DNA of 39,879 nt, from positions 1 to 39,879 of the IMG/VR virus record IMGVR_UViG_3300035670_000548. One strand, given 5' to 3'. Below, in pieces: positions 21,847 through 39,879 of the stretch. The position numbers were made by a program, and so were the translations under genes. A model generated the notes under the pieces. It searched no databases and was not told where the DNA came from. It was given only the letters and a program-made list of their open reading frames with translations. This DNA comes from a virus. The stretch's first letter is position 1; each line of letters opens with the position of its first letter.

Positions 21847-24800
21847 AGGTATAATTTGAATACTTAAGAGGACTTGTTCTTTGTATGATTGTTCCTGTCA
21901 TAATTCCAACAAAACCTGAATAGGTGTATGCATCATAAGAGTTCAATTCTGGTCGTGATGTAAGTGTTATTCTTCCCCAACTATAATTTCCATAGTAATT
22001 ACTATTTCCAATTCCCGTCAAACCATTGTAATCAGTTACACTTACTACTATTTTTGCAACATAAGTCAATCCAATTCCAGGTGCAGATGTTTGACCAATA
22101 GACACAGAAGTTACTTGATAAATGTTATCTAAACAAGTGGAACCAATTCCTACCGTAAATCCATCACTATCTATCGATGTGACTCCATTGCCAACATTTG
22201 AATTAAATATTGCAACGTAATATCCCGTTTGAATTCCACTGATAGTAGTAACACCAGTAATAGAAGAATTTCTGAAGAAAGAGTCTTCTGGAATGTAGAG
22301 ATCTAGAATTATTCCTGTGGGAACTCCAACATTAGTAGTTGTAATTCCTATAATAATTCCAGAGTCTCCTTCATAAAGATCAACAGATGCCTTTTCTGAA
22401 TCTAAAGTTGGAGGTTCAATAAGAACTAGGGGAGGATTAGACGATGTATATCCAGTTCCAGGTCCAGTAATAGCAATAGAAGTAACAATTCCACTAGTTA
22501 TTGAAGAAACTGCCTCTGCTCTTGCTGAAGTTCCAACTCCAACTGGATTCTGGATAGTGACAGATGGTGAAGTAGAATAACCAATTCCACCATCTGTGAT
22601 ATCAATTGAAGTTATTGTTCCAAGACCCGAAACAATGGCAGTTGCTGAAGCAGAAACTTTGGTGTCTTGCGAAATAAATGTAATGTTGTCTTGGAAACTT
22701 AAACTAGTATCATTCTCATTGATTTGATTGAAGAATGGTCTAATATTATCAACATAAACAATTGTTGTTCCTACTCCAACTGGTTGAATTAAGTAAGCAA
22801 AAGGATTGATGACAGGTTCATATAGAATTCTATCCTTTCCTATTTCCTTTCCATTAATAATTTTATCTTCGGTCTGTCTACACCAAACAACTGGCCTAAA
22901 GAGACTTTCATCATTGGTATTTCCTGGACCAAAATAAGGATTTGTGGTTACAAAATCTGTTGAGTTTATTTGAGTAACTGTTCTACTTTCTTCTTGTAAA
23001 GAAGCAGGTTGACCCAAATAAGAATCATATCCAATTGTCAATTCATCTCCAATTTTAACTGTTTCTAAAATATCACGCTCTATCACATCAACAGATCCGC
23101 TACCTTTATAGAACAGTATCTTGCAAGTATCATTTTCTTTTGGAGGTTCTGTGAATGAAATCAAACTCCCTCCATTGAAAATATATCCTTCGCCCGGAAC
23201 CTGTAGTATATCATTTACAAATACTAACAATACATCTTTGACATCAATATTAGATCCTTTTGCTGATCTAATAGAAACTAGATTATCAGCGACTCTTAAT
23301 GGGAATACAAACTGAGCTCCATCAAATAAATCTTCTATACTATCAATAACCTGAAGTTCTCCTATAGTCCAACCTGCAAATCTATCAGTAAATATTCTTT
23401 CAATTGTTATTTGGAATTCGTAATACGAAGATGTTGTTGGAATTCCAGTAGATCCACCAATAGGAATTGTTAGAATTTCATTTTCTTTATATCCATAACC
23501 AGTATTTTTTATCTCAAAATTAATTACACTAGAACCTTGTCCAACAACAATATCAACAGTAGCTTCAGTTCCCAGTCCAGAAGAAGAAGAACTATAAATT
23601 AGAGGAACATCTGAGTATGATAATGGGTAATCGAAAAATACATATGGTGGATTTGTTGAAGTATATCCAGAACCTGGATTGGTTATCGCAATACTAACAA
23701 TATTTCCATTACTTACGGATGCTGTACCAATAAATTCAATATTTGGAGTTGATGTAGATGAAGTTCCAACACCAACTCTTACTGTTTGAATTCCGGACCT
23801 ATAACCAGATCCACTGTTTCCAATGCTAACTGATTGTATAGTTCCCGCTAAAGAAACAATCGCTGTTCCTCCAGCAGCAACTAAAGGTTGATATCCAAAT
23901 CCTTCTGTGGAACCAACAGAGACTATTATTCCTCCAGAAGGTAAAGTGGAAGTATTAATATCATAAGAAATAGAAGTACCGGTTCCAGTAAATCTTATTG
24001 ATGTTATACCTAAAGATTCTTCCAGCACATAATTCAATGTCTGTCCAGGACCTTGGAAAACATCATTAACTAAAATGATAGCATTTTCTGTGGATATTCC
24101 AGTTACATTTGAGTTTGATGCTAGAAGATCAAAAGAATTTGATGTTCCGTCAAATTCATCAGAAATATCATCAAAAACATAATTTTTAGTATATGTTTCA
24201 TCTGAACTATTAATAATTCCAGATCTTAAGAAAACTCTACCTTGGAAACTAGATCCTGTAGAAATTCCGGTCCAATCTCTTTCATCAGGAGGATTTGTTG
24301 TTGAAGACAGTGGGAGATTTCCATATGGGGCAGTGACAAAGTTGATAACATTGTCGGTAATATTATAATTTCCAGTAACTTTTGTTACAATAGAGTTTGT
24401 AGAATATCCTGCCGTAACAGTTCCCAACCAAGGTCTTCTTACACGAATAGCATTTGTTGTGCCAACGCCAACAGATTCTATTCTCATTATTTCGCTACCT
24501 ATTCTAATTAAATCGCCACCAAAGAATGATGTTATTCCTGTGAAATATACTATATCATCTATAGTAGATGCAGCCTCTGATAGCGTTGTTGTTAGTGCTG
24601 TAGATACTATTGGTGATTGTATTACATTATCGATGGCAACAACAACTTTGGGATTTTGATTGGTTGAAACAAATCTATGTGAAGTTCCTATGCCAACACT
24701 AACAATGTCCAAAGAATTTGGTACTGATTTTAGTGCATTTTCTGCACTAGATGCGAGTTTGATTGTATTATCATTAATTTTAATAGCATAAATGTCCAAA

Positions 24801-27800
24801 GGTAGTTTATCTGTAGTGCCAATACCAACAAAAGTTGTTGCTGCAATGCCTATAGCCTGAGTAGTTCCTGCTCCAGCATGATGATATTTTATTTTTTCGC
24901 CCGTAACAAAGAAGTGATTAGGTATCTTAACAGTATTATTTAAAGTGTCTACCGTATCAGAACTACTTCCATCAAAATATCTCTCAAAAATAGGAACATT
25001 TTTGTGATTTAAATTGAATGCACGTTTTACATCAGAATCTGTTCCTGTGTAATTTGCATAACCTGTTCTAATAGTAGCATTCATTAAATCAATTATATCA
25101 TTATCATCGTTTTCATGACGTAATGAATTCATAAAAACTTTTACTTGAACATCGATATCTGGTATCGGAGTGAAGACAAGTTCTGTTATGGAACTTGTCC
25201 TTCTTGTTCCTATTGTTCCTAATCCGGATAAAGTTTCGATGTTTCCATACTCTGTACTATAGGTTTCTGTTTCATCATCTATAACTAAAACCTCAGAGAG
25301 TTGATTTTCGTTATTAGTTAAATCAAAGACTTGTACGATATAATATGCAGTATCATAAACATCTGGATAATCTCCGATAACATGTGGTACTGGAGAAGTT
25401 GATGCTGCAATGGAAACAGTTCTTGACTCTAAGCGAGCATGTTTCATATCAAAAGTCCCTATTCCAGTCGATTCCGTATTTCCTAAAGAAACCTGAATAG
25501 TATTGACTGTGAGAGCAACTCCTGGATTTGGAATGAAATCAATATTAATATTAGATCCTGAAATATATGGGTAATAAGTTCCAAAACCTGATGAAGAATA
25601 AGGTCCAAGTTCTGTTGTCAATTGCCCATACTCCACAAATTCAACTTCCGACCCATTTGTGACAACATTTAGTTCATCAAATTCAAATTCATTATTAATT
25701 CCATTCAGTTCAACTAAAACTTTTAATGAAGTATAAGTAGATCCTAAAGAAACTATAGTTGTAGTAGACCCTGCAGAAACAAATGTACTTGCACTACTGA
25801 TTAAAGATGGACCTATAGAAGTACTTCCAACTCCAAGTAAATTGTCATTTAAATTGTATGATATTACCGCAATATCATAATCGTTTATGGAGTATTTTAC
25901 TGGATAGTAATTCAAGATACCCTGGGATCCTGATATTGCAAAATCAAAAGAACCTAAATCAGAATAAGTTTCCAATCTTCCGTATTGATTGATATATCCA
26001 TTGAAATCGTCATGAATAAGAGTAACAAACATTAATTGTCTTTGATTGAAAAATCTCTTATCTTTTACATAAATTGCATATTTTTGTGCTCTTACATCAG
26101 CTAAATCAAATCTAAAAACCTCAGAGTATCGAGTTGGTCTAGGATTGCTGTTAAATTGACCACTAACATCATCAATAGATAATACTCTATTTCCAACAGA
26201 TTCTAGATAATCTGTCAAGATTCTGTTTGCAAAAACTATTTCATCAGAAAAAATTCTTGATGATAGTTCTAGAGAATTTTCACTCACTAAATCAAAATCA
26301 TAAACACAATTCAAATCGACAACTCCAATAATATCGTTTACTACTTCAATTGAAGTTGTAGTTGTTGTGACTCCAACAGTAATTGGAATACTTGGAATTG
26401 ATTCCAATTGATAATCTGAGAATTTTTTAAATCCTGCAGTGTGGTTTAATGTACTTACAGAATCGTTCCAAGTATCATAATCAACTCTCGACTTTAGACT
26501 GTATGAGAAATTTTGATAATAGAAATTATCTTGAATTCTCTGTAAATTATTGTTTAGAACGCCCGCATCACTTTCCCAACCATTCTCTACTTTTGAGAAA
26601 GGACCTAAATTCATGTATCCTTCAAAATATGTTATTGATGATGCTATGCCTTGTGTATTTGATGAAGATCCTTCTATGACTTCGCCAATAGAAAACTTCT
26701 GATCAGATATTACCTTTAGATAATTATTTTTAGAATCCCAACTATCAACTACTCCATAGGAAACAGAATTTGAATATACTTCTTCTCCCTCCAAGTAATC
26801 ATTTTTAGTTAACTCTATATTAAATAGTGGAAAATCTTTTTCTGGAATTATTCTCCCCGCAGAATTTATAGGATCAAATTTTCCTGGGAATTCGGATCCA
26901 GTTAAGAATTGACTTAAGTTATATGTGACTGATCCTATTCCTCCTCTATTTTCATCGACAGAAGTTAAAGTAAATAGAGAATAGTTATAACCATCAGAAT
27001 TATAACCCTTTCCTGTTGATCCTAAACCAACGCTAATATTCTCAATCAATACTTTATCATTGACTTTAAAGGGGAAAGAATCTGCAGTGCTAAACCCAAC
27101 AGAAAGTCTTACCGTAACATCTTTTGTTGATTCGTTGAAACTAATTGTGGAAATACCAACTCCGTTAGAATTTTCGATAGGAAGTATTCTAGGAATAACA
27201 TCAGATATTCCATATGTGTTTCTTATTATCGAAACATTTGAGTCTCCTAGACTATATCTCAAATCAATCTCTGGAATAATCTGACCGGTCTTACCATCAA
27301 AAACTAATAGTTTTGGTGGACTTGTGTATCCCTTGCCAAAAGAACTTATTCCTATAGAGAAGAAAGAAGATAGTGGTTCTACTTTTATCACCTGAGGCAA
27401 TGATGTAGAAGGTCTAAGTGTATAGTCTGATGGGAAATTAAATCCAATATCATTGACTTTTGAATTTTTTATTCTTCCTATTGATTTACTATCTGCCTCC
27501 AATAATGCTCCTGTTCCAAGTAGACTGTCAACAGTGCTAATTCCGGGCAAAGAACTATAAGAAAATCCTCTATTGAGTATTTTTACATCATATATTGGAC
27601 CAATAACATTTTTTGAATTGGTATCATACTTTATTTCAGCCTCAGAAGAAGTGTAGGATACTCTTTCTGGTACTTTTTGTAAGGTGTAATTGAAAGATGT
27701 TGAAGAAGCTATAGAGATTGTATGATTTCCACTATAGAGACTATTCTTAAATGTAATTTCACTACTTGAAAAGACAGTATCGTCTACTACTATCGACTCT

Positions 27801-30800
27801 TTCTCTAATGGAATATTTCCATCATATACAGGTCTCAATCTATAATATAATCTTTCCGGAAGATTGTTGTTTATTGAAAGAGTGATTTTTGCATCTGTAC
27901 TAATACCAATAGATCCCGTTTTTTGTATGTCAAATAATCTTGAATTTTGTGATGTCTCAAATTCTTCTGTGAAATTAGAATTCTTATAAAACTCAAATTC
28001 AAAAGCGGGATAATTTGTAGATTGATAAGTGTATGAAAGTGATGGATCTGATAAATTAAATTCTACGATAGAATTTTTATAAAGTTCTACGCCCGGATTT
28101 ACTAAGGCAATTTCTCCAAAAGATGCACTAGTAATATCGACGATGAGTGGTTTTAGTTTTGTAGCATCGAAGTATGAAGTTGATAATTTTATTGTGTTTG
28201 GATCAAAAACCACAACATAATATTCGCCATTATCATCTAGTCCTCCGCATGGAGAAGACGATGTATGAATAACTTTTTGACCCGACTTCAATCCGTGATT
28301 TGGAATGGTTATAGAATTTGAAGATGTGCTAACTCCAGAAATAGAGAAAGATTTTGGATCAACTAAAAGAACTCTATTATAATCATTATATTTGATTACT
28401 ATTTCTGTAGTAAGTCCTACATTAATGTTTACGTTTACAGAATCTCCATTTCTCAATCCATGTGTTTGTGCTGTAGAAACAGTAACGATATTCCTGGAGA
28501 TTTCTCCTGCAATTACAGAATGATTTGTCTTAAAACTATGATATTCTCCTGTTCCAACACCTACAAAGTATAAAGTTTCTATAGAAGAAGTTTCTGATGT
28601 TATTCCTGAGAATACACCTGTTGAACCCAATCCCACTCTCACCGTAGATAAACCTATCAAATCATTAGAAATCTTGGCTACGTATAGGGTTGATGGATCA
28701 GTTAGACTAAAACTTGTCGAAATGCCATTAGTGGAAACTCCTATAACACTTCCACCATTTGTCGAATATGTGACCTCATCTCCAGTTATCAGACCATGGC
28801 CTGGTAGATATATTGTTTTTGATGGAACAAATATTTGTGTGAATCCAACCCCCGGATTTGAGATACTTAGAGTAGTTCCTATGCCAACTCCAGATACAGT
28901 ACCTAAACCAACCGATTCAGATGGAATAAAATATATTTCTTTATTAATCTTATAATTATAATCACTTCTAAAACCAGTACTAATTGTTAATTTTCTTGGA
29001 TTTTCATATAACGCTGACGTTATTGAATGTGAAGATCCTACAGTGCCATTAATTTCTCTTAAAACTCTTAGTCTTGAAGAATCATTATCAATGTTCAATA
29101 CTTTTAGTTTTTCTGAGTCTACCTCAAGAATATCATTTTCTCTAATAAATTGTGATGATAAATTGCCTCTTACTGAGATATAAGTGACAATTCCAGTTAC
29201 TCCTACACTATGGAGACCAACTGTTGAAGATCCTGATCCCACCAAGAATAAGGCATTAGAAGAAATTCCTGCACGATAAGTTCCTTCTAATCTAGATGAG
29301 GTTGTGTTTAATCCAGATACATTAATAAAATCAGTGTTTCTTAAGTTATGTGGATTTTCTGCATAAATTACATACTCATCTTTCTGGAAACCTGGATATA
29401 TTTCAACATTATAAATTGTAGTTGATGCTATACTGATTGAATCAACACTCTTTCCTTCAATGCTTGATACTGATGCAGATGCTGCAAATCCTCTAGGAGT
29501 TCCATTTGCGTCTAAGTTATCGAAAACAAGAACATCACCAACTCTATAATTATTTCCTCCTGTTGAAATGGAAACAGTATCTACTTCTCCTGTAAATGTT
29601 GACTTAATCTCTACAGTTTGATCTATATTATTTGGAACGTAAACATACTTATAATAATCATTATTGAAACCAATATTGTAATAATAAGTATTCCTTTTCC
29701 AATTTGTATCGTTTAGATTTATTTGATCTTGATTGGAGGAATAGTCGAAGTTAAAATCATTTGGCTTGGATCTAAAAGAATTTCCTATTAAAAATGGAAA
29801 TACAGGTCTCTTATATCCAGCAAAACTGCCTGAAGAATCTGCATTTCCATCACTAATTGTAGCAAAGTATGCATAAGTTCCATTTGGAAAATCTGGAGTT
29901 ACACAAAATCTTCCATTATTCTCATCCAAAACAGTTTCATCATTTACATTATAGTGGGTATAATCCTCAACAAAGAATCCCTCAGGAAAAGAACTTGTAG
30001 GAGGTCTATTTGGTTTAAGATCTATTTCATACCCAGACTTCATCTGGGAAACTGATCCTCCCTGTTTAGAAATGTATCCATAAGGTCCGTATATTGGATT
30101 TCCGTCATATGCCCATCCAATAATAGGAGAATGGTCCGTAGAATTTGATTCTAGATTATTTACTTTTCTTAAATCTTTTTTAGAATAAATTATTTCTCCA
30201 GATTGATCTACTGCATAAATCGTTTCTCTAAGATTTCTTGGTGCATATATGTGAGAGTACTCTAAACCAAAGTCTGGATTTGCAGACTCTGTAACAAATC
30301 CATCGTCTTTTGTTATGTTATTGATATACTTCTGGAATAGATTTACTGTCCAAGTTTGTATTTTTGCATTTGCTTTAAAATTGTTTCCTGGAGAAACAAC
30401 TTCTATCGAAGTAGTATCTGGACTATATCCTATACCACTGTCTAAAACTTTTATAGAAGTTATCTGACCGTTATCAATTATTGGGGTTAGTACTGCACCC
30501 ACACCATCACCAGTTATTATTAGATCTGGAGCAGAAAAATATTTTTCTCCTACATTAGACACTAATACTTCACTTATTCTTCCGTCAGAGATTATAGGAA
30601 TTAATTGGGCATTTGTTCCTTTTGATAAGTCAAAGTTTGGTTGTCTTTGGTAATTTAAAGTTTCTGAAGATCCATAATCTGAACCATTAGAATCTAAATG
30701 AATTGAAGTTATAGACCCTCTAAATACTGGTCTAATTTTTGCCTTAAAATCTACTCCATTAGTGGAAGAGATACCTACATTTCCTAAAACGTTTACACTT

Positions 30801-33800
30801 ATCTCCGGATAATTGAAAATATGTGTACCATTACCAATGGAATTGAAATCAACATATTGTTTAGTTTTATAATAAAAATCTCTACTCTCTATAGAATTAG
30901 AAACTTCAGATAACCTAAAGTTATTATCATCAACCTTTGTTAAGTAATATTCTGTATTAGTTGTCAATCCGCTTATAGGAGTTCCATCATTATAATACTT
31001 TACAATCTCTCCAGAGTTAAAATCATGATTTTTTATTGTAATAGTGTTTAGTGAAGTATTAACACCGACAAAAGAGCATGTTCTTTTTTTATTTTGATAT
31101 CCAGAACCAGAACTTATAACGTTTATAGAATCTAAAACCAGTTTTTTGTTGGTGGATTCTAGAATATGATTTCCAATTCCATATGAAGATAGAGTTATTG
31201 TGTTAATTCCAGATATTGCTTCATTTCTATTTTTGTGTAATTTTACAATGTATGGGGTCTGTGTAGAAACATAATAGATAGCATCTGTAGACAATCCACC
31301 TACAGATGTTTGAGAATCTGTCCTATAAATTACAGGTTCTCCATTTCTAAATTTATGATAAGTGGAAAATCCAATTGTTGATAATGATGATCCTAAAGAA
31401 ACAAAATTAGATTCTATTTCGGAATTAAAAGAAACTCTATGTTCTATGAGTCTGGTTTTTGCACTAGCCTGAGCTCCTACACCATTACCTCCAGTAATAG
31501 TTACTATTGGGGTTTCCTGATAATCAAATCCAGGGTCTATTATATCAATTCTTTGTAAAGATCCATCTACAGCACAAAATCCCGTAGCACCAGAACCTAC
31601 TCTGTCAGATATTAAGAGATTTGGTGGATTTATGACATCATATTCATCACCGCCAGAAGTTACTTCCACTTCATCAATTTGACCATAATATAAAACATCA
31701 GATGACTTATAATTTAATATTTCAACACCGTTTACAAGAATACCCGTTTTTCCTGGAGTTGTTTCATAAAACTTTCCGTCATTTTCTGGGGAGGCAACTT
31801 CTCTAAGAATTTTTTGGTTATCTAGATATTTTGAATATAAGTTATATGGAGTTATTTTATTCGATGATACAGTAGTTTGAGAAGAAACTTCTACAAATCT
31901 AGAATTATCAATATCCGATCTACTTCTTGCAAATTTTACATTATTCGAATCAATCCTTTTTACAAAATATAAACCTTCGTCAAATAATGAAGTTCCGTCC
32001 TCTTCTAAACTTATTTGATTGCCGTCAACATCAAAAGTTGAAACTTGAATCTTTTCTGGTGAATAATAGACCGCATCTCCAGTATAAAATCCATGATCAA
32101 ATAAATTAGTAATTTTAAAAGTTTCTCCAACATATGTGCCAGAAAAAGTAATAGATCTATTACCTACTTCTAAAGATGTATTATTGTATGATGGAAGTGA
32201 TGGAGAAGCTACTAAAATTTTATCATCATCTAAGTAAACATTTTGTATATCTGATGAGAAAATATTAGAATTTGGGAAATTATTTGATCTTACCTTCGAT
32301 AAATTTCTATTTACTGTGAATTTTCTACCTTGTAGAGGTATAGTAACAGGAGATTTTGCAATTATTGATGTTGCAGATGTTACATCAGATATTGTCAATA
32401 TCTCATTGAAGTTTGCACCATCATCAATGGTGAGAGAATTACCTATACTAAAAATATGGTCTTTATCTAAACGTATTGAATAGATTTTATTCAAAGAATC
32501 AACCAATGAAATAGAATCAACATTATAAGTTGTCGAAATATTTAAAATCCAATTCTTTGATTTTAAATTCTTTTCATTGATTCCAAGAGACTTTAATTTT
32601 AATGAATCTCCTTTATTATAAAAATAAGAGTTTGTGTCGAGAGAAAAAGAGTTTAGTACTGAAGTAACCTTAACTCTTATCTCAGTACCAAAACCTGTAG
32701 TTGCATATGCATACGTGTTTATTCCTACAGAAGATCCATCAAGTATATTCAAATTTAAATTTGAACAACCTAAAAATTGACTTATTGATTTTGAAGAATA
32801 ACTTACTATACCAATAGATCCATCAAAATATTTTACTTCCAGCTCTCCACTATTTGGAAATCCTACTGTAGAATCGACATCAATAAATGAAGATCCTGCA
32901 GAAACGTTCCCTATATTGGAAGTTCTGGCATGTATAGAAAAATTACCATAAACAATACCATCATAGTTAATATCTCTGTTGTAACCAGCATCTATTTTTA
33001 ATTTGTAGAATTCTCCCTCAGTTTTGGTGTTTAATCTACTTACATTGGTTACTGGAGCATATGCTTTTTCGATTTCACCATACTGATTTTGGAATAATGT
33101 CAAATTCTCTAAATCAAAAGGATTTCCAGAAACACTTTCCACCACCAGATCATTCGTAATCCTATAGTGTGCATCTGATGGTCTAAAGAGAAACTCCTTT
33201 GGCTTTATTACCTTTACATCTTCATTATAAAGTGCTTTAAACAATATTTCAAAGGAAAAGTCAGTTCCCTTACTCAGATAAAAATCTTTTGCTTGTTTTA
33301 TGAAAAGATTTTGATTTAAGTCTGGAGTAAGTTCCCTATCTTCCAATCCAGGAGTTAGTTGGTACTTAGTTTTCAGTAAAAATTGCTTTAAAAATAAGTC
33401 ACTAAGATTATAAATTACTTCTCCAGAAGTATGACTTGTAGATTCTGAATCTGAAAAAGAAAGTTCTTGATCGTAGGATGTTATCCCACTAAATCCTCTA
33501 ATACAACCAGTAAAAGAGTTTATAGTCTTTCCTGTATAAGTAATAATTTCATCACCTATTCTCAAAAGACCATAAGATTCTGGAAATCCATAGGTCCCTT
33601 TTGGAGATTCTAATAAATTAACGACAATAGTTGTGTCAGTAGATGAAATATCGTCATTCAATACTACAGAATCTATAGTATTTGTTGTCTCATCAAGTTT
33701 GATGTATCTATCAATATTTTGAATTAAGTCTAAAGGTGCTCCCTTAAACTCTTGGGCAAGATAGTATTGTGATAAAAAATCAATAACTAATGGAAATTCC

Positions 33801-33865
33801 TCTCTTACGTAAGATGGAACTTGATTTTTTACAATTTTGTTGATCTGAATTCTTTTTTCTGTCAT
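21845..33865 (-). CDS. gp7: Giant gp7 counterpart, baseplate wedge protein (4,006 aa)
   Basis: This sits between gp6 and gp8, exactly where T4 gene 7 lies. Residues about 191-219 (QAKDFYLSKGTDFSFEILFK, then ALYNEDVKVI) match the T4 gp7 segment RSYDFYSTKGIEASYKFLFK followed by VLYNEEVEI, supporting a true gp7 relation. T4 gp7 has 1,032 residues; this protein is almost four times longer. A YHYH domain lies at about 1235-1335 (IIGWAYDGNPIYGPYGYI ... NGTYAYFATI). The rest is repeat modules: at least eleven G-x-GY units, six or more NHG-x-x-TG-x-x-V-x-Y units and several IG-x-EI...RG-x-x-GT units. It starts one base after the gp6 stop. It probably forms the wedge base plus long peripheral extensions. 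No frameshift or internal stop was found across 12 kb. Confidence 0.9.
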   Translation of the reverse strand: MTEKRIQINKIVKNQVPSYVREEFPLVIDFLSQYYLAQEFKGAPLDLIQNIDRYIKLDETTNTIDSVVLNDDISSTDTTIVVNLLESPKGTYGFPESYGLLRIGDEIITYTGKTINSFTGCIRGFSGITSYDQELSFSDSESTSHTSGEVIYNLSDLFLKQFLLKTKYQLTPGLEDRELTPDLNQNLFIKQAKDFYLSKGTDFSFEILFKALYNEDVKVIKPKEFLFRPSDAHYRITNDLVVESVSGNPFDLENLTLFQNQYGEIEKAYAPVTNVSRLNTKTEGEFYKLKIDAGYNRDINYDGIVYGNFSIHARTSNIGNVSAGSSFIDVDSTVGFPNSGELEVKYFDGSIGIVSYSSKSISQFLGCSNLNLNILDGSSVGINTYAYATTGFGTEIRVKVTSVLNSFSLDTNSYFYNKGDSLKLKSLGINEKNLKSKNWILNISTTYNVDSISLVDSLNKIYSIRLDKDHIFSIGNSLTIDDGANFNEILTISDVTSATSIIAKSPVTIPLQGRKFTVNRNLSKVRSNNFPNSNIFSSDIQNVYLDDDKILVASPSLPSYNNTSLEVGNRSITFSGTYVGETFKITNLFDHGFYTGDAVYYSPEKIQVSTFDVDGNQISLEEDGTSLFDEGLYFVKRIDSNNVKFARSRSDIDNSRFVEVSSQTTVSSNKITPYNLYSKYLDNQKILREVASPENDGKFYETTPGKTGILVNGVEILNYKSSDVLYYGQIDEVEVTSGGDEYDVINPPNLLISDRVGSGATGFCAVDGSLQRIDIIDPGFDYQETPIVTITGGNGVGAQASAKTRLIEHRVSFNSEIESNFVSLGSSLSTIGFSTYHKFRNGEPVIYRTDSQTSVGGLSTDAIYYVSTQTPYIVKLHKNRNEAISGINTITLSSYGIGNHILESTNKKLVLDSINVISSGSGYQNKKRTCSFVGVNTSLNTITIKNHDFNSGEIVKYYNDGTPISGLTTNTEYYLTKVDDNNFRLSEVSNSIESRDFYYKTKQYVDFNSIGNGTHIFNYPEISVNVLGNVGISSTNGVDFKAKIRPVFRGSITSIHLDSNGSDYGSSETLNYQRQPNFDLSKGTNAQLIPIISDGRISEVLVSNVGEKYFSAPDLIITGDGVGAVLTPIIDNGQITSIKVLDSGIGYSPDTTSIEVVSPGNNFKANAKIQTWTVNLFQKYINNITKDDGFVTESANPDFGLEYSHIYAPRNLRETIYAVDQSGEIIYSKKDLRKVNNLESNSTDHSPIIGWAYDGNPIYGPYGYISKQGGSVSQMKSGYEIDLKPNRPPTSSFPEGFFVEDYTHYNVNDETVLDENNGRFCVTPDFPNGTYAYFATISDGNADSSGSFAGYKRPVFPFLIGNSFRSKPNDFNFDYSSNQDQINLNDTNWKRNTYYYNIGFNNDYYKYVYVPNNIDQTVEIKSTFTGEVDTVSISTGGNNYRVGDVLVFDNLDANGTPRGFAASASVSSIEGKSVDSISIASTTIYNVEIYPGFQKDEYVIYAENPHNLRNTDFINVSGLNTTSSRLEGTYRAGISSNALFLVGSGSSTVGLHSVGVTGIVTYISVRGNLSSQFIRENDILEVDSEKLKVLNIDNDSSRLRVLREINGTVGSSHSITSALYENPRKLTISTGFRSDYNYKINKEIYFIPSESVGLGTVSGVGIGTTLSISNPGVGFTQIFVPSKTIYLPGHGLITGDEVTYSTNGGSVIGVSTNGISTSFSLTDPSTLYVAKISNDLIGLSTVRVGLGSTGVFSGITSETSSIETLYFVGVGTGEYHSFKTNHSVIAGEISRNIVTVSTAQTHGLRNGDSVNVNINVGLTTEIVIKYNDYNRVLLVDPKSFSISGVSTSSNSITIPNHGLKSGQKVIHTSSSPCGGLDDNGEYYVVVFDPNTIKLSTSYFDATKLKPLIVDITSASFGEIALVNPGVELYKNSIVEFNLSDPSLSYTYQSTNYPAFEFEFYKNSNFTEEFETSQNSRLFDIQKTGSIGISTDAKITLSINNNLPERLYYRLRPVYDGNIPLEKESIVVDDTVFSSSEITFKNSLYSGNHTISIASSTSFNYTLQKVPERVSYTSSEAEIKYDTNSKNVIGPIYDVKILNRGFSYSSLPGISTVDSLLGTGALLEADSKSIGRIKNSKVNDIGFNFPSDYTLRPSTSLPQVIKVEPLSSFFSIGISSFGKGYTSPPKLLVFDGKTGQIIPEIDLRYSLGDSNVSIIRNTYGISDVIPRILPIENSNGVGISTISFNESTKDVTVRLSVGFSTADSFPFKVNDKVLIENISVGLGSTGKGYNSDGYNYSLFTLTSVDENRGGIGSVTYNLSQFLTGSEFPGKFDPINSAGRIIPEKDFPLFNIELTKNDYLEGEEVYSNSVSYGVVDSWDSKNNYLKVISDQKFSIGEVIEGSSSNTQGIASSITYFEGYMNLGPFSKVENGWESDAGVLNNNLQRIQDNFYYQNFSYSLKSRVDYDTWNDSVSTLNHTAGFKKFSDYQLESIPSIPITVGVTTTTTSIEVVNDIIGVVDLNCVYDFDLVSENSLELSSRIFSDEIVFANRILTDYLESVGNRVLSIDDVSGQFNSNPRPTRYSEVFRFDLADVRAQKYAIYVKDKRFFNQRQLMFVTLIHDDFNGYINQYGRLETYSDLGSFDFAISGSQGILNYYPVKYSINDYDIAVISYNLNDNLLGVGSTSIGPSLISSASTFVSAGSTTTIVSLGSTYTSLKVLVELNGINNEFEFDELNVVTNGSEVEFVEYGQLTTELGPYSSSGFGTYYPYISGSNINIDFIPNPGVALTVNTIQVSLGNTESTGIGTFDMKHARLESRTVSIAASTSPVPHVIGDYPDVYDTAYYIVQVFDLTNNENQLSEVLVIDDETETYSTEYGNIETLSGLGTIGTRRTSSITELVFTPIPDIDVQVKVFMNSLRHENDDNDIIDLMNATIRTGYANYTGTDSDVKRAFNLNHKNVPIFERYFDGSSSDTVDTLNNTVKIPNHFFVTGEKIKYHHAGAGTTQAIGIAATTFVGIGTTDKLPLDIYAIKINDNTIKLASSAENALKSVPNSLDIVSVGIGTSHRFVSTNQNPKVVVAIDNVIQSPIVSTALTTTLSEAASTIDDIVYFTGITSFFGGDLIRIGSEIMRIESVGVGTTNAIRVRRPWLGTVTAGYSTNSIVTKVTGNYNITDNVINFVTAPYGNLPLSSTTNPPDERDWTGISTGSSFQGRVFLRSGIINSSDETYTKNYVFDDISDEFDGTSNSFDLLASNSNVTGISTENAIILVNDVFQGPGQTLNYVLEESLGITSIRFTGTGTSISYDINTSTLPSGGIIVSVGSTEGFGYQPLVAAGGTAIVSLAGTIQSVSIGNSGSGYRSGIQTVRVGVGTSSTSTPNIEFIGTASVSNGNIVSIAITNPGSGYTSTNPPYVFFDYPLSYSDVPLIYSSSSSGLGTEATVDIVVGQGSSVINFEIKNTGYGYKENEILTIPIGGSTGIPTTSSYYEFQITIERIFTDRFAGWTIGELQVIDSIEDLFDGAQFVFPLRVADNLVSIRSAKGSNIDVKDVLLVFVNDILQVPGEGYIFNGGSLISFTEPPKENDTCKILFYKGSGSVDVIERDILETVKIGDELTIGYDSYLGQPASLQEESRTVTQINSTDFVTTNPYFGPGNTNDESLFRPVVWCRQTEDKIINGKEIGKDRILYEPVINPFAYLIQPVGVGTTIVYVDNIRPFFNQINENDTSLSFQDNITFISQDTKVSASATAIVSGLGTITSIDITDGGIGYSTSPSVTIQNPVGVGTSARAEAVSSITSGIVTSIAITGPGTGYTSSNPPLVLIEPPTLDSEKASVDLYEGDSGIIIGITTTNVGVPTGIILDLYIPEDSFFRNSSITGVTTISGIQTGYYVAIFNSNVGNGVTSIDSDGFTVGIGSTCLDNIYQVTSVSIGQTSAPGIGLTYVAKIVVSVTDYNGLTGIGNSNYYGNYSWGRITLTSRPELNSYDAYTYSGFVGIMTGTIIQRTSPLKYSNYT

Positions 33866-33866
33866 T

Positions 33867-35792
33867 TTATGATCTTACTAAATTGCCGTTGCTGTAACTT
33901 GAGGAGACTATGTAATTTGATGCTGAAGGATCTAATCCAGAAGCAATTTCATCAACAACCATTTCAAAATTGCTGTTATTAATATCTAGTTGCAAATAAA
34001 GGTCTTGTAATCCGATCACATCATTTGATCTTGGAATTGCTGAAATCTCTATAATACTTTGACCATCTTTTACTTTTGAGGAAACTATATTAATTGGATT
34101 TAAGGTCACAATACCACTCTTATAATTAATAGTTCCAACATTTCTTTTAACTATTGTGGGAGTTGGAGAATTTACTGATGGAACTGTAAATAAAAATATA
34201 GATCCAGTTATTCTATCTGTATCTGGAACATCAGAAAGATAAACATCATTGTTTATATCAGCAGTTCTGAATGCTGAAGATTTAATATTGTATCCATTCA
34301 TACTCTTAATATAGAATTCATTCCCAAAACCTATTTGATATTCGGTAAATGCATTCAATACAACTCTCAAATCTCTTCTCATTTGAATAGTAGTGATGTT
34401 TGAAGTTACAGAACTATCACTATCATCAATTATTTTTAGAAATTTACTATATTTAAATCTTGCACCATATCGATTTAATTCTGTCGATTCTGCATACTTA
34501 TTAACATTTGATTGAACAATACTAGAAACATAGTCTGCGCCAGGAGCTAGGTTAGTATTATAATAAATTTTAGAATCAACCTCAACATAAAGATATTTCA
34601 AATCCAATATTTCTGGAACTATACCAGCAACAGCATACTTTTTAAGTCTCAACTTAATATTTTCCTTCACCAAATTAGGCAAAAAGTCACCAAATCTTGG
34701 TTTAATACTGATGAATACCTTTCCATATTGCGGAGGAATTAACTCTTCCCCACCAAAAACAGATATTGATTCTGTTTCTGGATAAATTTTGGCAGGAATT
34801 AATGTCTCATAATCATTAGAAGTTAATGCTCTATTTTGAGATGCATATATTCTTGGTGCATATTTTTTTATTGATTCTACTGACTCTATTTTCTCACCTC
34901 CAGAAGCAGGAATACCTGTTGTTAGAAGAGAAATTCCTGATGTTACAATATATTCTACTCCGTTTCTGGTATAAGATAAATTTCCTGCAAAACTAAATTG
35001 ATTAATTCCGTTTGCACTATCTCCATTAGTTACAATATATGAAATATTAATATAATTACCCTCTTCTAATTTTCTTCCAAATATTCCATCACCAAAGATA
35101 AGTTCATATCTCTCATCTTCTATCTCTTGGAGGAAAAATACATTAGAATTTGAATCAATATCAAAAAGACTGTCCTGATAGGAATATTTTACAGAGTTTG
35201 TTGAGTTCTCATTACTTCTAACTCTTGTAGATATTAATTCAGTATCGATACCAATATTATCTAATATGAATCTTTGGTTTTGATTATATTCAGAATATGT
35301 AAAGTTAGTTGTAAGCAAACTTCCTTCGTAAATGTTTATATCATTAAATTCTGCAATACCATTCACCACAGGAACTGTTATATCTTCTAATATTGAAAAT
35401 ACAAAAGATTGATTTCCAAAGGTTCCTGCTGTGGCTCCAACTGGTCCCTTTTTTAAGGTTAATGATGATGGGACAGGAGTTATATTTGTAGTGTCAACAA
35501 AAAAACTAATTGTTGCTCTTGATGCTTTTCTTGAGCGTGGGATATATCCAATATTTCTAGCGAGAGATACTACATTTTCCCTAAGAGTAGCACTATCAAT
35601 AAACACCTCATTTGCAATCATATTTGCATTATATGAGGATATGTAAGTATTATATGCCAATACATCAAGAATTGTTGAGAGATTGGAACCCTCAAAATCG
35701 TAATCTGTAAAGTTTGGATTTGATCTTAAATAATCTCTAAGAGTTATTTTGACTTGATCAAAATCTAGATTGGAGAAATTAACTAATGGCAT
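33867..35792 (-). CDS. gp6: Baseplate wedge protein gp6-like
   Basis: gp6 forms the conserved ring that joins the baseplate wedges, together with gp25 and gp53. The 641 residues are close to T4 gp6 (660). The N-terminal DYDFEGSNLSTILDVLAYNT (about 30-49) followed by ANEVFIDSATLRENVVSLAR and NIGYIPRSRKASRA matches the T4 pattern DYDFEGSRLNVLCDLLAYNT. The central IEDERYELIFGDGIFGRKLEEG (about 210-231) and RALTSNDYETLIPAKIYPET are typical of the J/gp6 baseplate fold. The gene starts one base after the gp25 stop, with AGG in the stop region serving as ribosome site, so it is translated together with gp25. Confidence 0.96.
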   Translation of the reverse strand: MPLVNFSNLDFDQVKITLRDYLRSNPNFTDYDFEGSNLSTILDVLAYNTYISSYNANMIANEVFIDSATLRENVVSLARNIGYIPRSRKASRATISFFVDTTNITPVPSSLTLKKGPVGATAGTFGNQSFVFSILEDITVPVVNGIAEFNDINIYEGSLLTTNFTYSEYNQNQRFILDNIGIDTELISTRVRSNENSTNSVKYSYQDSLFDIDSNSNVFFLQEIEDERYELIFGDGIFGRKLEEGNYINISYIVTNGDSANGINQFSFAGNLSYTRNGVEYIVTSGISLLTTGIPASGGEKIESVESIKKYAPRIYASQNRALTSNDYETLIPAKIYPETESISVFGGEELIPPQYGKVFISIKPRFGDFLPNLVKENIKLRLKKYAVAGIVPEILDLKYLYVEVDSKIYYNTNLAPGADYVSSIVQSNVNKYAESTELNRYGARFKYSKFLKIIDDSDSSVTSNITTIQMRRDLRVVLNAFTEYQIGFGNEFYIKSMNGYNIKSSAFRTADINNDVYLSDVPDTDRITGSIFLFTVPSVNSPTPTIVKRNVGTINYKSGIVTLNPINIVSSKVKDGQSIIEISAIPRSNDVIGLQDLYLQLDINNSNFEMVVDEIASGLDPSASNYIVSSSYSNGNLVRS

Positions 35793-35793
35793 T

Positions 35794-36195
35794 TTACCTA
35801 GTTTGTTGCAAGACGAATTGTAATTGTTGTGCTGGAATATCTGCTCCTATAATTTCATATATGATTGTCACATCAAAAGAATTATTGTCGTAATCTGGAA
35901 ATGCTTGGACATCAATCAATCTAACTCTTGGTTCATAATTTGTAATTGATTCTCTAATTTCATCGACAATAACTGATGCAGAAATATCATCTACATTTTC
36001 AAATAGAGATCTTGTGATGTTTGAACCAAAGTTTCTATCGAAAAATTTTTCTCCAGGAAGGGTAAACACAATATTTTTAACTGAACGTGCGATTGCATTC
36101 TCATTTTTCAGTCCAATTAAATCCCCATTTAGGGGATTACTTTGGAATGATAGACTGATATCTTTAAAACCTTGACTTACCCTTTCTAGAGGCAT
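35794..36195 (-). CDS. gp25: Baseplate wedge protein gp25-like
   Basis: gp25 is the small conserved wedge protein that starts sheath polymerisation and is shared with type VI secretion systems (TssE). The length of 133 residues is nearly that of T4 (132). Landmarks are NENAIARSVKNIVFTLPGEK followed by FFDRNFGSNITRSLFE (about 31-66) and the helix IVDEIRESITNYEPRVRL with DVQAFPDYD. The EPRV motif is the family hallmark. It is preceded by an AATAAATA late octamer and heads the baseplate transcript gp25, gp6, gp7. Confidence 0.96.
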   Translation of the reverse strand: MPLERVSQGFKDISLSFQSNPLNGDLIGLKNENAIARSVKNIVFTLPGEKFFDRNFGSNITRSLFENVDDISASVIVDEIRESITNYEPRVRLIDVQAFPDYDNNSFDVTIIYEIIGADIPAQQLQFVLQQTR

Positions 36196-36214: not shown

Positions 36215-36475
36215 TTATTTATTAGTGTTTTTTGATTCATAAAGAGGTTCTGTTCCATATTCCCAATCATCATAATCTTCATCATTACGAATTTTTGCAT
36301 GAATTTCATTTTGATGGTGAAAATCGTGCTTTTTAGGTGTTAAATCGTCATTTGCGATCTCACGAAGCATCTTTTGCTTCTGAATTTTGTCTTCCCAACC
36401 ATACTCACTAGCTAAAAATTCAGTCCCCCACTCATTTCTCATAAAATTCTGGTCCTTATCGACTTTTTTGGTCAT
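36215..36475 (-). CDS. Hypothetical acidic protein (86 aa)
   Basis: Not recognised with a function. The protein is strongly charged, with NEWGTEFLASEYGWEDKIQK near the start, HDFHHQNEIHAKIRNDEDYD and WEYGTEPLYESK near the end. It has no membrane segment or Cys pair. The start is well supported by GGAG about eight bases before ATG 36475. It overlaps the 3' end of the 223-aa gene by 20 bases, and its TAA lies in the gp25 late promoter. It belongs to the last gene before the baseplate operon; a link to baseplate assembly is only positional. Confidence 0.75.
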   Translation of the reverse strand: MTKKVDKDQNFMRNEWGTEFLASEYGWEDKIQKQKMLREIANDDLTPKKHDFHHQNEIHAKIRNDEDYDDWEYGTEPLYESKNTNK

Positions 36476-37127
36476 TTTTTTGCTCCTGATTTGTTAGATC
36501 AGAACTTTTTACGGGGTTGCTATCCCGTGTATCGATATAAAATCCTTCTCTTAGGTAGTCTTTGTCCTCAACAAAGGTCAAATTTTCCATTTTTTCTATT
36601 TTTTCACCAACCCAAACTGGAATAGCAACATTATTCCCATATCTGAAGTCAGGATTTCTTCTAAAATGAACTTCTATGAGTTTATTGTCAATGAATTCAC
36701 AATTTATCCACTCATAATCACCTTTCAAGTCATTTAGAATTTCAGGAAATTCTACTTTTCTATCTACTTTATACCACTTTTTCCATTTGTAGAATGGAGC
36801 TTCTAATTGTTTCTCTCCAATCACAACTAAAGAGGATTCTTTTCTATAGAAATCAACACTCATGTGTTCACCTTCAAAGATTTCACACCAGAATTCTGCT
36901 GGATGAAAATGTTCCGTACTATCTTCTATAGGTACTACACGAGAAAATCGCCCCATACCGAGTATATTAATACTTGGTCGGACGATATAATTACCTGGAT
37001 ATGGAACAGGCACCCCTGTAGGTCCACAGAGATGCCTTAGACGAGTATTTAAGATTAGTTTGTTATATACCCACAGATCTTCTTCATGAATTGATTTCCA
37101 TTCATCGTTGGAATCAAAATAATACAT
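36456..37127 (-). CDS. Conserved phage protein of unknown function, ATP-grasp-like features (223 aa)
   Basis: Not assigned to a T4 gene; comparison with T4 gp53, expected near gp25, shows no match. The order of motifs resembles small ATP-grasp enzymes: WVYNKLILNTRLRHLCGPTG then VPVPYPGNYIVRPSINILGM (about 19-58), PAEFWCEIFEGEHMSVDFYR (about 76-95) and INCEFIDNKLIEVHFRRNPD (about 141-160). In the last of these the E..H/R.N region would correspond to the metal-binding end. I recall similar proteins in cyanophages annotated only as hypothetical. The C-terminus is polar and disordered-looking (LTNQEQKNDQKSR). A modifying or ligase role is speculative. The ATG at 37127 has only a weak GGA ahead. 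Confidence 0.72.
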   Translation of the reverse strand: MYYFDSNDEWKSIHEEDLWVYNKLILNTRLRHLCGPTGVPVPYPGNYIVRPSINILGMGRFSRVVPIEDSTEHFHPAEFWCEIFEGEHMSVDFYRKESSLVVIGEKQLEAPFYKWKKWYKVDRKVEFPEILNDLKGDYEWINCEFIDNKLIEVHFRRNPDFRYGNNVAIPVWVGEKIEKMENLTFVEDKDYLREGFYIDTRDSNPVKSSDLTNQEQKNDQKSR

Positions 37128-37153
37128 GTTCCAATCTGTGACCTCTTTACTAT

Positions 37154-37288
37154 TTAACCTTTACCTTGTCCACGATACTTCTTTTTACGACCATTGCGAG
37201 AGGTTGCTGATAGAAGTGTGCGAGCAGAGCGGCCTTGACGAGTTTTCTTAGGTGCTCCGGGTTGAAAAGTATTTCCTTTAAGTGCCAT
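37154..37288 (-). CDS. Very basic small protein (44 aa)
   Basis: The sequence MALKGNTFQPGAPKKTRQGR continues with SARTLLSATSRNGRKKKYRG and ends QGKG. It has about a dozen Lys/Arg and no acidic residue. Similar Arg/Lys-rich short proteins with the SARTLLSATSRN core occur in T4-like cyanophages, by recall. It has a strong GGAGG ribosome site and its ATG shares a base with the stop of the 51-aa gene upstream (TAATG), so the two are co-translated. Nucleic-acid or ribosome binding is likely from composition, but unproven. Confidence 0.82.
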   Translation of the reverse strand: MALKGNTFQPGAPKKTRQGRSARTLLSATSRNGRKKKYRGQGKG

Positions 37289-37443
37289 TAGATTTCCTCC
37301 AGTTCAATTAAATTTGGATCAACGTCATCTCCCGAGAAAAAAGATTCTGAGAGTTCTTGAAGAACCTCAGTACATTCTTCTGCACTGAGGTTTGAATAAA
37401 TTTTACGTCCTTCATATAGGACATTGTAGAGTTTTTCCGTCAT
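37288..37443 (-). CDS. Conserved small acidic protein (51 aa)
   Basis: The sequence begins MTEKLYNVLYEGRKIYSNLS and continues with AEECTEVLQELSESFFSG. It resembles a short protein common in cyanophages (by recall), with an N-terminal beta hairpin and a helix. The ATG overlaps the glycosyltransferase stop as TGATG and the stop overlaps the next ATG as TAATG, so three genes are translationally linked. Function unknown. Confidence 0.82.
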   Translation of the reverse strand: MTEKLYNVLYEGRKIYSNLSAEECTEVLQELSESFFSGDDVDPNLIELEEI

Positions 37444-38210
37444 CAAATAATACGAGTCTTTTCGTGCCCAACACGAATACGAGGATCACACCAAATCTGA
37501 TAACCCTTGTCAATTGCATCAAGACAGAATGACACATCTTCTCCACACATATCTTGTACTGCACCAGACTCAAAGACTTGCATCTTAGGAGCAAACCAAG
37601 GATATTCAATATTCTCAAAGACACCCTTCTTAATGAGCACCCATCCAAAACCTGTGTAGTCTACAGTAAATGGCTTACGACGCTTCTGAATAGAATCCAC
37701 AGTTTCGTGGTTCATGACTCCACCATTCTTACGGAAGTCATCTTCTTCCAACCAGTGTGCGACAGAGGTTGTGTGTCCATCTTCTGTAGCATACCATCCA
37801 GCAACAATCTCCTTCTCTTCACCTTCTTGATTCAGAGCAAGATCACAGAGCTGCCAGAACTTGTTAGAATCAAAAACAATATCACTATCAATCCAGAGTT
37901 GATAATCATATTGCAATTTCCCATCCCAAGGTACTTGCTTAGGTCCACGAAGTACATTTGCTCCAAGAACTTTACAACGTGCAAAGTTTACCATGGACGA
38001 ATAATCTTGTGAAATCTGAATACTCATTCCATTTTGTACAAGATCAAAACAAAGTTGTACAAATGCTTTTAGAAAAATAAAAGAGCATCCTCGACCAGGT
38101 AGACAAAATACAATTGACTTCCCTTTCATCCTCTCTTTAATAGCACCATAATCCCAATCTTCAGTTTGTTGCTTAGGTGCTGCTGCTTTAACAGTGAATC
38201 CTTTTGCCAT
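37443..38210 (-). CDS. Glycosyltransferase, GT-A fold (255 aa)
   Basis: This is a likely sugar transferase. Residues 31-110 form the nucleotide-sugar part. KSIVFCLPGRGCSFIFLKAF opens it, SSMVNFARCKVLGANVLRG follows, and the DxD-type metal site is LWIDSDIVF (Asp 108, Asp 110). Later landmarks are GFGWVLIKKGVFENI (187-201), the acidic acceptor-site motif CGEDVSFCLDAIDKGYQIW (222-240; Glu 224, Asp 225) and a C-terminal His in RVGHEKT (249). The order matches GT2-like enzymes found in T4-like cyanophages. Target unknown: phage DNA, capsid or host surface glycans are all possible. It has its own sigma-70-type promoter 25 bases upstream, unlike the late genes. Confidence 0.85.
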   Translation of the reverse strand: MAKGFTVKAAAPKQQTEDWDYGAIKERMKGKSIVFCLPGRGCSFIFLKAFVQLCFDLVQNGMSIQISQDYSSMVNFARCKVLGANVLRGPKQVPWDGKLQYDYQLWIDSDIVFDSNKFWQLCDLALNQEGEEKEIVAGWYATEDGHTTSVAHWLEEDDFRKNGGVMNHETVDSIQKRRKPFTVDYTGFGWVLIKKGVFENIEYPWFAPKMQVFESGAVQDMCGEDVSFCLDAIDKGYQIWCDPRIRVGHEKTRII

Positions 38211-38492: not shown

Positions 38493-38633
38493 TTAATTTA
38501 CTATTGCATTATATATCAGTACTATCAAAAACCCAAGTGGTATTAGCACTACTCTACTTGTCGTCTTTGGATATCTGATTATCCAACCTGCAAGTATTAC
38601 TCTCCAAAAATTCCAGTATGGGGTCTTTCTCAT
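38493..38633 (-). CDS. Small single-pass membrane protein (46 aa)
   Basis: The frame reads MRKTPYWNFWRVILAGWIIR, then YPKTTSRVVLIPLGFLIVLI, then YNAIVN and TAA. The second half (about 27-44) is a hydrophobic helix of membrane length, preceded by a basic aromatic segment, so an N-in topology is likely. The ATG overlaps the HNH endonuclease stop as ATGA, fitting coupled translation. I recall similar short WNFWR..AGWIIRYP proteins in cyanophages. Function unknown; inner-membrane action during infection is inferred. Confidence 0.78.
   Translation of the reverse strand: MRKTPYWNFWRVILAGWIIRYPKTTSRVVLIPLGFLIVLIYNAIVN
38508..38536 (-). promoter_or_regulatory. Possible sigma-70-type promoter inside the 46-aa membrane gene
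   Basis: The minus strand has TTGGGT (38536-38531), 17 bases, then a perfect TATAAT (38513-38508). It lies within coding sequence, about 50 bases before the 63-aa gene. The -35 matches only three of six bases, so this is tentative. Confidence 0.35.
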
Positions 38634-39031
38634 CGATTTGCTCTATTCGTTTTTCTATCACACCATCTTAGATTTGATGGATGATTGTTTTCCTTATTCC
38701 TATCAATATGATCAACCTCTGATAACCCTAAAGGATTCTCAATAAGTGTTTCTGCAATTAATCTATGAACAGAATATCTGAACCTCTTTAAGTTCTTTCC
38801 AGTATTATCTTTAATTGATATATTGATACCTTTGTATGCCCCACCTTTGAACTTTTGATACCTAGTGTCACCTCCTCTATAATGCTCAGGAACTCTTTTT
38901 AATTTCCCTTTCCAAGACTTATTTCCACTAGTGTGCCATTCTGTCCATATTTGTCCATCTTCAGAAATATAATATCCATTAAACTTTGTGGGGTAAAAAT
39001 TACCTCCGGAAAAATTTTTTGAGTGTGACAT
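38630..39031 (-). CDS. HNH homing-type endonuclease (133 aa)
   Basis: This is a free-standing homing-endonuclease relative that would nick or cut DNA. The N-terminal FNGYYISEDGQIWTEW (17-32) resembles a NUMOD4-type DNA-recognition element. The C-terminal HNH_3-type core is VHRLIAETLIENPLGLSEVD followed by HIDRNKENNHPSNLRWC (88-124), with His 108, Asn 120 and the usual spacing. It appears intact. Its TGA overlaps the ATG of the small membrane protein, and it has an AGATAA-rich leader without a clear ribosome site. A second HNH gene lies on the opposite strand less than 500 bases away, so this is a mobile-endonuclease hotspot. Confidence 0.88.
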   Translation of the reverse strand: MSHSKNFSGGNFYPTKFNGYYISEDGQIWTEWHTSGNKSWKGKLKRVPEHYRGGDTRYQKFKGGAYKGINISIKDNTGKNLKRFRYSVHRLIAETLIENPLGLSEVDHIDRNKENNHPSNLRWCDRKTNRANR

Positions 39032-39457: not shown

Positions 39458-39469
39458 GTGTGATATAAT
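39441..39469 (+). promoter_or_regulatory. Sigma-70-type promoter for the plus-strand HNH gene
   Basis: TTGAGT (39441-39446), 17 bases, then a perfect TATAAT (39464-39469). Transcription would start near 39476, about 19 bases before the ATG at 39495. This favours that start over the in-frame ATG at 39468, which would lie in the -10 region. Confidence 0.65.
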
Positions 39470-39494
39470 GATCTTAAGGTATATTCAATGTGTG

Positions 39495-39879
39495 ATGGTT
39501 AGTGATAAGAGACATCCATACTTCAGTGACTATTCAATAACAACTGATGGGCGAGTAATCAGTCACAAATGGGGTAAAGATAGAGAACTTAAGCAACATC
39601 ATGACAGGAAAGGTTACTTACAAGTTAAGGTCCTAAAAGAAGGAAAAGAGTATACTAAAAAGGTCCATAGATTAGTAGCAGAGACCTATATCGAAAATCC
39701 AAATAATCACTCACAAGTTAATCATATCAATGAGATCAAAGACAATAACAGTGTCGAAAACTTAGAGTGGTGTGATAACCAATACAACCAAGAATACTCA
39801 AGATCAAAGTATTATCTGTTGGAGAACTTAGAGACTGGTGATATAGTCTCAGTCTTCAATCTTAGAAAGACCTGCAAAG
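39495..39879 (+). CDS. HNH homing-type endonuclease (partial, C-terminus beyond window)
   Basis: 128 residues are visible on the plus strand, opposite to every other clear gene here. The N-terminal HPYFSDYSITTDGRVISHKW (7-26) is NUMOD4-like. The HNH_3 core is VHRLVAETYIENPNNHSQVN followed by HINEIKDNNSVENLEWC (57-93), with His 77 and Asn 89. After this YYLLENLETGDIVSVFNLRK begins a NUMOD1-like DNA-binding tail that continues outside. ATG 39495 is chosen because the promoter start is near 39476; an in-frame ATG at 39468 would add nine residues (MILRYIQCV) and cannot be excluded. The protein differs clearly from the minus-strand HNH gene, so the two are not recent duplicates. Confidence 0.85.
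   Translation, partial: MVSDKRHPYFSDYSITTDGRVISHKWGKDRELKQHHDRKGYLQVKVLKEGKEYTKKVHRLVAETYIENPNNHSQVNHINEIKDNNSVENLEWCDNQYNQEYSRSKYYLLENLETGDIVSVFNLRKTCK

Follow-up and report, generated by a model that had tools for sequence, protein, structure and literature searches.

The window, the whole 39,879-nucleotide stretch of DNA that was analysed, is part of a T4-like cyanophage. The region of interest lies on the minus strand and is composed of a glycosyltransferase-like gene, two small genes, an open reading frame of 223 residues, a further small gene with an RNA leader, and the genes of two baseplate wedge proteins. The features were located as follows.

37443-38210, minus strand: 255-aa glycosyltransferase-like protein (phrog_1574, E 1.7e-114; phrog_34859 glycosyltransferase, E 1.2e-5)
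37288-37446, minus strand: 52-aa small protein (weak phrog_3252)
37154-37288, minus strand: 44-aa very basic peptide (phrog_516) with the C-terminal end KKYRGQGKG, directly upstream of the accessory slot
36456-37127, minus strand: phrog_3577-family ORF of 223 aa with an ATG start and a predicted ATP-grasp fold (profile match, model, dN/dS)
36528-37127, minus strand: conserved protein part, residues 1–200, predicted ATP-grasp core without the pre-ATP-grasp domain
36456-36527, minus strand: C-terminal tail, residues 201–223, produced by reading through the RNA leader of the following gene
36474-36531, minus strand: conserved structured RNA leader of the 86-aa gene, just before its ATG and overlapping the 3' end of the ATP-grasp ORF
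36215-36475, minus strand: 86-aa small protein with an acidic C terminus, downstream of the slot (no PHROGs or Pfam match)
35794-36195, minus strand: gp25 baseplate wedge protein (PF04965, E 4.3e-14)
33867-35792, minus strand: gp6 baseplate wedge protein, 75% identical to gp6 of Synechococcus phage S-SM2

The 223-residue reading frame contained, on the minus strand and in the expected order, the three motifs from which a small ATP-grasp-like enzyme had originally been proposed: GNYIVRPSINILGMG (residues 45–59), FWCEIFEGEHMSVDF (residues 79–93), and INCEFIDNKLIEVHF (residues 141–155). The glycosyltransferase named among its neighbours was also found, at 37443-38210. The protein matched the phrog_3577 profile of PHROGs v4 with an E value of 1.2e-58 over profile positions 6–201 of 202, and the label of this family is "unknown function". 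Matches to the protein were obtained by tblastn in 50 phage records, all of Synechococcus phages and mostly near-identical ACG-2014f isolates. The "hypothetical proteins" of Synechococcus phages S-T4, S-SRM01, ACG-2014f, and BUCT-ZZ01 belonged to the same family, with identities to the window protein of 72%, 54%, 48–52%, and 30%, respectively. A relative was encoded in 273 IMG/VR stretches, the best 80 of which were taken for comparison. The dN/dS values between the window gene and its relatives were 0.07–0.22 in eight of ten pairs, dS being saturated in the other two, and the ORF is therefore a real gene under purifying selection.

The protein was 196–205 residues long in 49 of the 80 relatives, at least 215 residues long in 28, and of intermediate length in three. 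The DNA of the tail, after approximately residue 200, was kept in other reading frames and past stop codons in the relatives. Because of these two observations, residues ~200–223 are placed outside the conserved protein, as a translation of the nucleotide element of the next gene. In S-SRM01, a frameshift located at the glycine loop interrupted the family copy (~6000-6600 of the fetched stretch), and the annotated CDS began downstream of the break; either the gene is dispensable there or a pseudogene, or the record contains a sequencing error.

The structure of the window protein was predicted by AlphaFold2 from an alignment of 50 sequences, comprising the window and IMG/VR loci, with a pLDDT of 83.6 and a pTM of 0.77. 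The model was confident to approximately residue 203, and residues 204–223 were disordered with a pLDDT below 50. The predicted model contained the two-domain ATP-grasp core, a RAGNYA lid and a kinase-like domain. When the model was compared with the PDB by Foldseek, 434 matches were obtained at E ≤ 10 and seven at E ≤ 0.001, and all 50 of the matches listed were ATP-grasp proteins by title. The top matches were 3df7 (E 7.9e-6) and PylC (4ffl, E 1.7e-5), followed among the better ones by the graspetide ligase PsnB (7dro, E 6.8e-4); the L-amino-acid ligases 3vot, RizA (4wd3), and BacD (3vmm) were matched as well. In two matches to acyl-CoA carboxylase, the matched chain was presumably the biotin carboxylase. 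The TM-scores were modest, at 0.3–0.5. VIA-align gave Z scores of 10.1–11.9, again with ATP-grasp proteins by title in all 50 matches listed, including PurK (4mam; Z 11.9, rmsd 4.5 over 197 residues) and Ddl (8evw; Z 11.6, rmsd 2.8 over 145 residues); a family missing from these fold lists is not thereby excluded.

A second model was predicted for a relative of ~49% identity. Its pLDDT was 68.3, and the lid was poorly predicted (pLDDT 34–54 over residues 31–80). ATP-grasp proteins made up 48 of the 50 Foldseek matches listed, with a best E value of 4.9e-3 and none at E ≤ 0.001, and all 50 VIA-align matches listed, with a best Z score of 9.2. The alignments behind the two models share sequences, and the second model is thus not a fully independent test. 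At the fold level, the original prediction was supported by AlphaFold2, Foldseek, and VIA-align in all of the matches listed for the window model. Its remark that a phage ligase or protein modifier would be unusual here needs some qualification: in a comparison with viral models, the best match was a family member of 45% identity, and several proteins named ATP-grasp came next.

In most VIA-align matches, model residues ~1–4 were paired with residues ~66–105 of the solved chain. The pairing began at residue 74 in PurK (3orq), 66 in GAR synthetase, 79 in biotin carboxylase, and 97–105 in Ddl, while some other PurK alignments began at residues 8–26. In most matches, for the second model as well as the first, the aligned part thus begins just past the pre-ATP-grasp domain of the solved enzymes, and the window protein is modelled as a reduced ATP-grasp core from which this usual N-terminal domain is absent. 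It shares the common core fold with the solved ATP-grasp ligases 3df7, PylC, 3vot, RizA, BacD, PsnB, 8evw, and PurK (4mam and 1b6s), whereas it is only 8–13% identical to them, lacks the pre-ATP-grasp domain, and has ExH in place of ExN.

The predicted ATP-grasp assignment rests on the predicted structure and the residue pattern. No Pfam match above chance was found in 50 family members, no ATP-grasp match was found for the family in NCBIfam, and neither the single protein nor the family profile matched a PDB sequence. PADLOC returned nothing for the phrog_3577 protein. Comparisons by hhalign with E. coli CarB, DdlB, PurK, PurT, and RimK, and with small alignments of Ddl, RimK, and ATP-grasp_3, scored no better than unrelated controls; a local CarB match that sat on the IVRPSINILGMG motif did not outscore the unrelated PpiB. 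Thin profiles (Neff about 2–3) were compared here, and for this reason the failure does not refute homology.

The BUCT-ZZ01 protein retrieved no distant relatives from IMG/VR, and the family alignment retrieved none from bacterial genomes. The family profile matched none of 386 cyanobacterial genomes and none of five further records, and in a control search it found four of four carrier phages and neither of two non-carriers. The family is so far phage-restricted, with no cellular donor seen. The phrog_3577 family had no assigned function before, and its reading as an ATP-grasp family is new here. No assignment of phrog_3577 was present in the available portions of the literature on cyanophages and ATP-grasp proteins (PMC7824862, PMC3597751, PMC10580990, PMC13332234, PMC4431377, and PMC3037559), and an earlier description is possible in Iyer et al. 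2009 (PMC3268129).

According to PMC4431377, the ATP-grasp catalytic template consists of one basic residue each in the linker and at the end of strand 2 of the RAGNYA domain, an acidic residue in the penultimate strand, and an ExN motif in the final strand, the Asn of which is sometimes exchanged for other polar residues. Residue conservation was counted over 76 distinct sequences out of 92 rows, extending down to ~30% identity (BUCT-ZZ01), and the residue roles were read from where each residue falls in the motifs and strands rather than from a superposition of atoms. The residues corresponding to the template were encoded as follows.

37059-37061, minus strand: codon of K23, proposed linker lysine before the strand of residues 45–51 (Lys in 76 of 76)
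36978-36980, minus strand: codon of R50 (within IVRP), proposed basic residue closing RAGNYA strand 2, in the strand of residues 45–51
36948-36959, minus strand: codons of G57-M-G-R60 (LGMG), glycine loop after strand 2, placed by residue conservation
36696-36698, minus strand: codon of E144, proposed first metal ligand, in the strand of residues 141–146 (Glu in 76 of 76)
36666-36674, minus strand: codons of E152-V-H154, ExH instead of ExN, at the end of the strand of residues 149–154

Position 50 was Arg in 70 sequences and Lys in six. In the glycine loop, G57 and R60 were invariant and G59 was present in 74 of the 76 sequences; the basic residues R60 and R63 of the loop were both conserved. 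Position 152 was Glu in 74 sequences and Asp in two, and position 154 was His in 75 and Gln in one. The last-strand motif was therefore [ED]x[HQ], in which the acidic position was kept and Asn occurred in none of the 76 sequences. Residues R156 and N158 were each found in all 76. The Lys and Glu residues expected to be conserved in an ATP-grasp enzyme were indeed kept (K23, E144, and Glu or Asp at position 152, each in 76 of 76), as was a basic residue at position 50. All of the catalytic-type residues were retained in BUCT-ZZ01, the most diverged member, in which position 82 was Lys, compared with Glu in the other 75 sequences.

ATP-grasp proteins of the R2K clade (CDC123, DUF4343, and relatives) also occur in phages, where they have been proposed to modify host proteins, as described in PMC4431377. 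In that source, the clade is characterized by the loss of the linker lysine and of the glycine loop motif, with the second basic residue supplied by the RAGNYA loop. The window family, in contrast, keeps K23 (76 of 76) and the G-x-G motif, in addition to the loop basic residues R60 and R63. Membership in the R2K clade was rejected on the presence of the linker lysine and the glycine loop, and there was no Pfam match either.

The genome neighbourhood was compared in 119 family-bearing loci, which included the window and some repeated contigs; the denominators below are the loci with enough sequence or a match. Downstream of the ATP-grasp gene and on the same strand, gp25 was found in 118 of 119 loci and gp6 in 110 of 111. 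Upstream, 110 of 111 loci carried the phrog_516 basic peptide and 103 of 104 the glycosyltransferase-like gene. Of the 119 loci, 105 had the 86-aa gene downstream; S-T4 was without it. The speD gene occurred in the slot region in 14 of 107 loci and also in S-SRM01.

When loci were fetched by the leader motif, and those with both the basic peptide and gp25 were considered (n = 102), the ATP-grasp gene was present in only 20. By protein clusters, the slot contained phrog_3704 (42), phrog_10325 (31), the ATP-grasp family (21), or single other genes, among them a 2OG-Fe(II) oxygenase in metagenomic loci. In the isolates, a 2OG-Fe(II) oxygenase occupied the slot position in P-SSM2, and a phrog_3704 protein occupied it in S-SM2. 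The slot (36215-37288) thus lies between the phrog_516 peptide and the leader and gp25, and alternates between the ATP-grasp gene, phrog_3704, phrog_10325, the 2OG-Fe(II) oxygenase, and speD. Because other genes fill the same place in other phages, the ATP-grasp gene is read as accessory cargo in an interchangeable slot and not as a part of the baseplate. The placement next to a baseplate block held in so far as gp25 and gp6 adjoin the gene; the functional link it might imply did not, since interchangeable slot contents make baseplate adjacency weak evidence of a tail function. Recombination could use the common leader and flanks as borders of the slot. One of the closest known systems is the set of cyanophage accessory-gene hot spots of Sullivan et al. 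2010 (PMC3037559), in the available part of which the ATP-grasp gene is not mentioned.

The S-SM2 slot gene (5933-6616 of the fetched stretch) was annotated as purM, yet it belonged to phrog_3704, the PHROGs label of which is ferredoxin. A slot relative of this protein had no Pfam match, and both labels look doubtful.

The leader at the edge of the slot was composed of a CGGG-AUAGnAA-CCCG stem, an A-rich stretch, and a GUUCU segment able to pair with the loop AGnAAC, followed by a second stem, CUGAUUU..AAAUCAG, which runs into the GGAG ribosome-binding site. Its 19-mer was found in at least 120 IMG/VR stretches, and by eye a start codon followed ~25–40 bases past the 19-mer at nearly all of the places listed. 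A leader profile matched 208 of 219 loci, which had been chosen for the leader element or the ATP-grasp family. In an alignment of 42 sequences, compensatory double changes were seen at two pairs of stem 1 (in eight and three sequences) and at two pairs of stem 2 (in seven and one), and the pairs of a candidate H-type pseudoknot were unbroken throughout. Pairing was kept in 93.5% of the leader cells of these sequences, compared with 88.9% in shuffles and 25–57% when slid. From the same alignment, RNAalifold predicted only four pairs of stem 1. The single-strand fold had an energy of −12.6 kcal/mol (z −3.36). The leader was single-copy at clear scores in five of nine records, and the weak extra matches (E 0.01–0.9) were probably due to chance.

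No Rfam family at the gathering cut-off and no tRNA were found in the window. The GP20-b RNA (RF03003) scored 15.0 bits in the window and 12.7 bits in a second locus, against a gathering cut-off of 36.2, and none of the matches listed placed it in a third. The leader is not an Rfam family at the cut-off and has a weak likeness to GP20-b; a literature search for GP20-b and GP20-a found nothing. Among 118 leader places, the ATP-grasp family was directly upstream in 21; it was not in 83 others, which had 700 bases or more of sequence on that side, and in the remaining 14 the contig start was too near to tell. The 86-aa protein and the leader were rejected as parts of an ATP-grasp system on these 83 places without the family. 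The leader may control the translation of the downstream gene.

The most likely function predicted for the phrog_3577 protein is that of an accessory carboxylate-amine ligase. The main reading, to which a probability of roughly 0.7 was given, is a reduced ATP-grasp enzyme encoded by an interchangeable accessory gene of T4-like cyanophages and not a baseplate part. On this reading, which we infer for catalysis, reaction type, residue roles, and accessory role alike, the enzyme would consist of ~200 residues forming a linker, the RAGNYA lid, and the kinase-like core, with no pre-ATP-grasp domain. If it works as other ATP-grasp ligases do, Mg-ATP would be bound between the lid and the core, with the phosphates held by K23 and R50 and the metal held by E144, E152, and H154. 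A carboxylate would be activated as an acyl phosphate and then attacked by an amine (or another nucleophile), with an amide-type bond, ADP, and phosphate as the outcome. The gene may serve a host-takeover or metabolic accessory function.

The best Foldseek matches (PylC, the L-amino-acid ligases, PsnB, ArgX, and Ddl) form amide-type bonds. The substrate class is not narrowed by them, because VIA-align placed PurK, PurT, biotin carboxylase, and GAR synthetase on a par with them. A macromolecular substrate appears plausible, because the N-terminal domain is absent from the model. A more specific reading is rather unlikely as a whole: phrog_3577 would be a phage-only minimal ATP-grasp lineage, with an ExH metal site and without the substrate-binding N-terminal domain, that joins an amino acid or peptide to a protein of the host or the phage during infection, and the right border of the slot would be a new structured RNA controlling translation of the next gene.

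The gene lies immediately ahead of gp25 and gp6 in the same orientation; this location, the replacement of ExN by ExH, and the absent N-terminal domain would also suit a pseudo-enzyme or virion protein, in which the ATP-grasp fold acts as a tail or baseplate scaffold or binding protein without ligase chemistry. This was considered unlikely: the catalytic-type residues are invariant or conservatively exchanged down to ~30% identity, the baseplate genes remain in phages without the ATP-grasp gene, and other phages have enzymes in the slot. A baseplate protein, as suggested by the neighbourhood, was accordingly rejected as the leading view on the other genes found in the slot. An enzyme of small-molecule central metabolism, for example one of the PurK, PurT, or GAR synthetase type or an amino-acid ligase for phage nucleotide or polyamine supply, was judged quite improbable. 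PurK topped both VIA-align lists and the slot can carry speD, but PurK was tied with Ddl within one Z unit, so that a purine enzyme could not be separated from Ddl by the top matches. Moreover, those enzymes have an N-terminal domain ahead of the matched part that is absent here, and no profile match to PurK or PurT was found.

A graspetide-like modifier that cross-links or tags the 44-aa basic phrog_516 peptide or the 86-aa acidic neighbour was held to be highly improbable. PsnB was among the better matches of the window model and ranked 3–5 for the second model, and the two small genes flank the enzyme gene at nearly all and at most loci, respectively. However, loci with a different gene in the slot have both peptides beside it as well, the 86-aa protein is missing from S-T4, and PsnB, PylC, Ddl, and the L-amino-acid ligases score alike. 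A dedicated precursor-peptide gene travelling with the ligase, the hallmark by which a PsnB-type system was judged, was not found. The small neighbours were lowered as dedicated substrates, as both occur without the ATP-grasp enzyme.

For an "unknown function" family of widespread cyanophages, the predicted reduced ATP-grasp enzyme supplies a fold and a reaction type that can be tested, and the baseplate adjacency of its gene is traced to an exchangeable accessory slot. If a host protein is modified, the reaction would be a step of host takeover new for cyanobacteria of the sea and of fresh water. At the slot edge, the RNA element offers a separate, compact study target.

Further genes were observed around the slot. 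An HNH endonuclease gene (phrog_959, PF13392) lies near it (38630-39031, minus strand); another ORF, where the window ends (39468-39878, plus strand), resembles the HNH endonuclease gene by eye. The baseplate and tail block contains very long ORFs on the minus strand, one of 4006 aa at the gp7 position (21845-33865) and one of 2713 aa (12121-20262).
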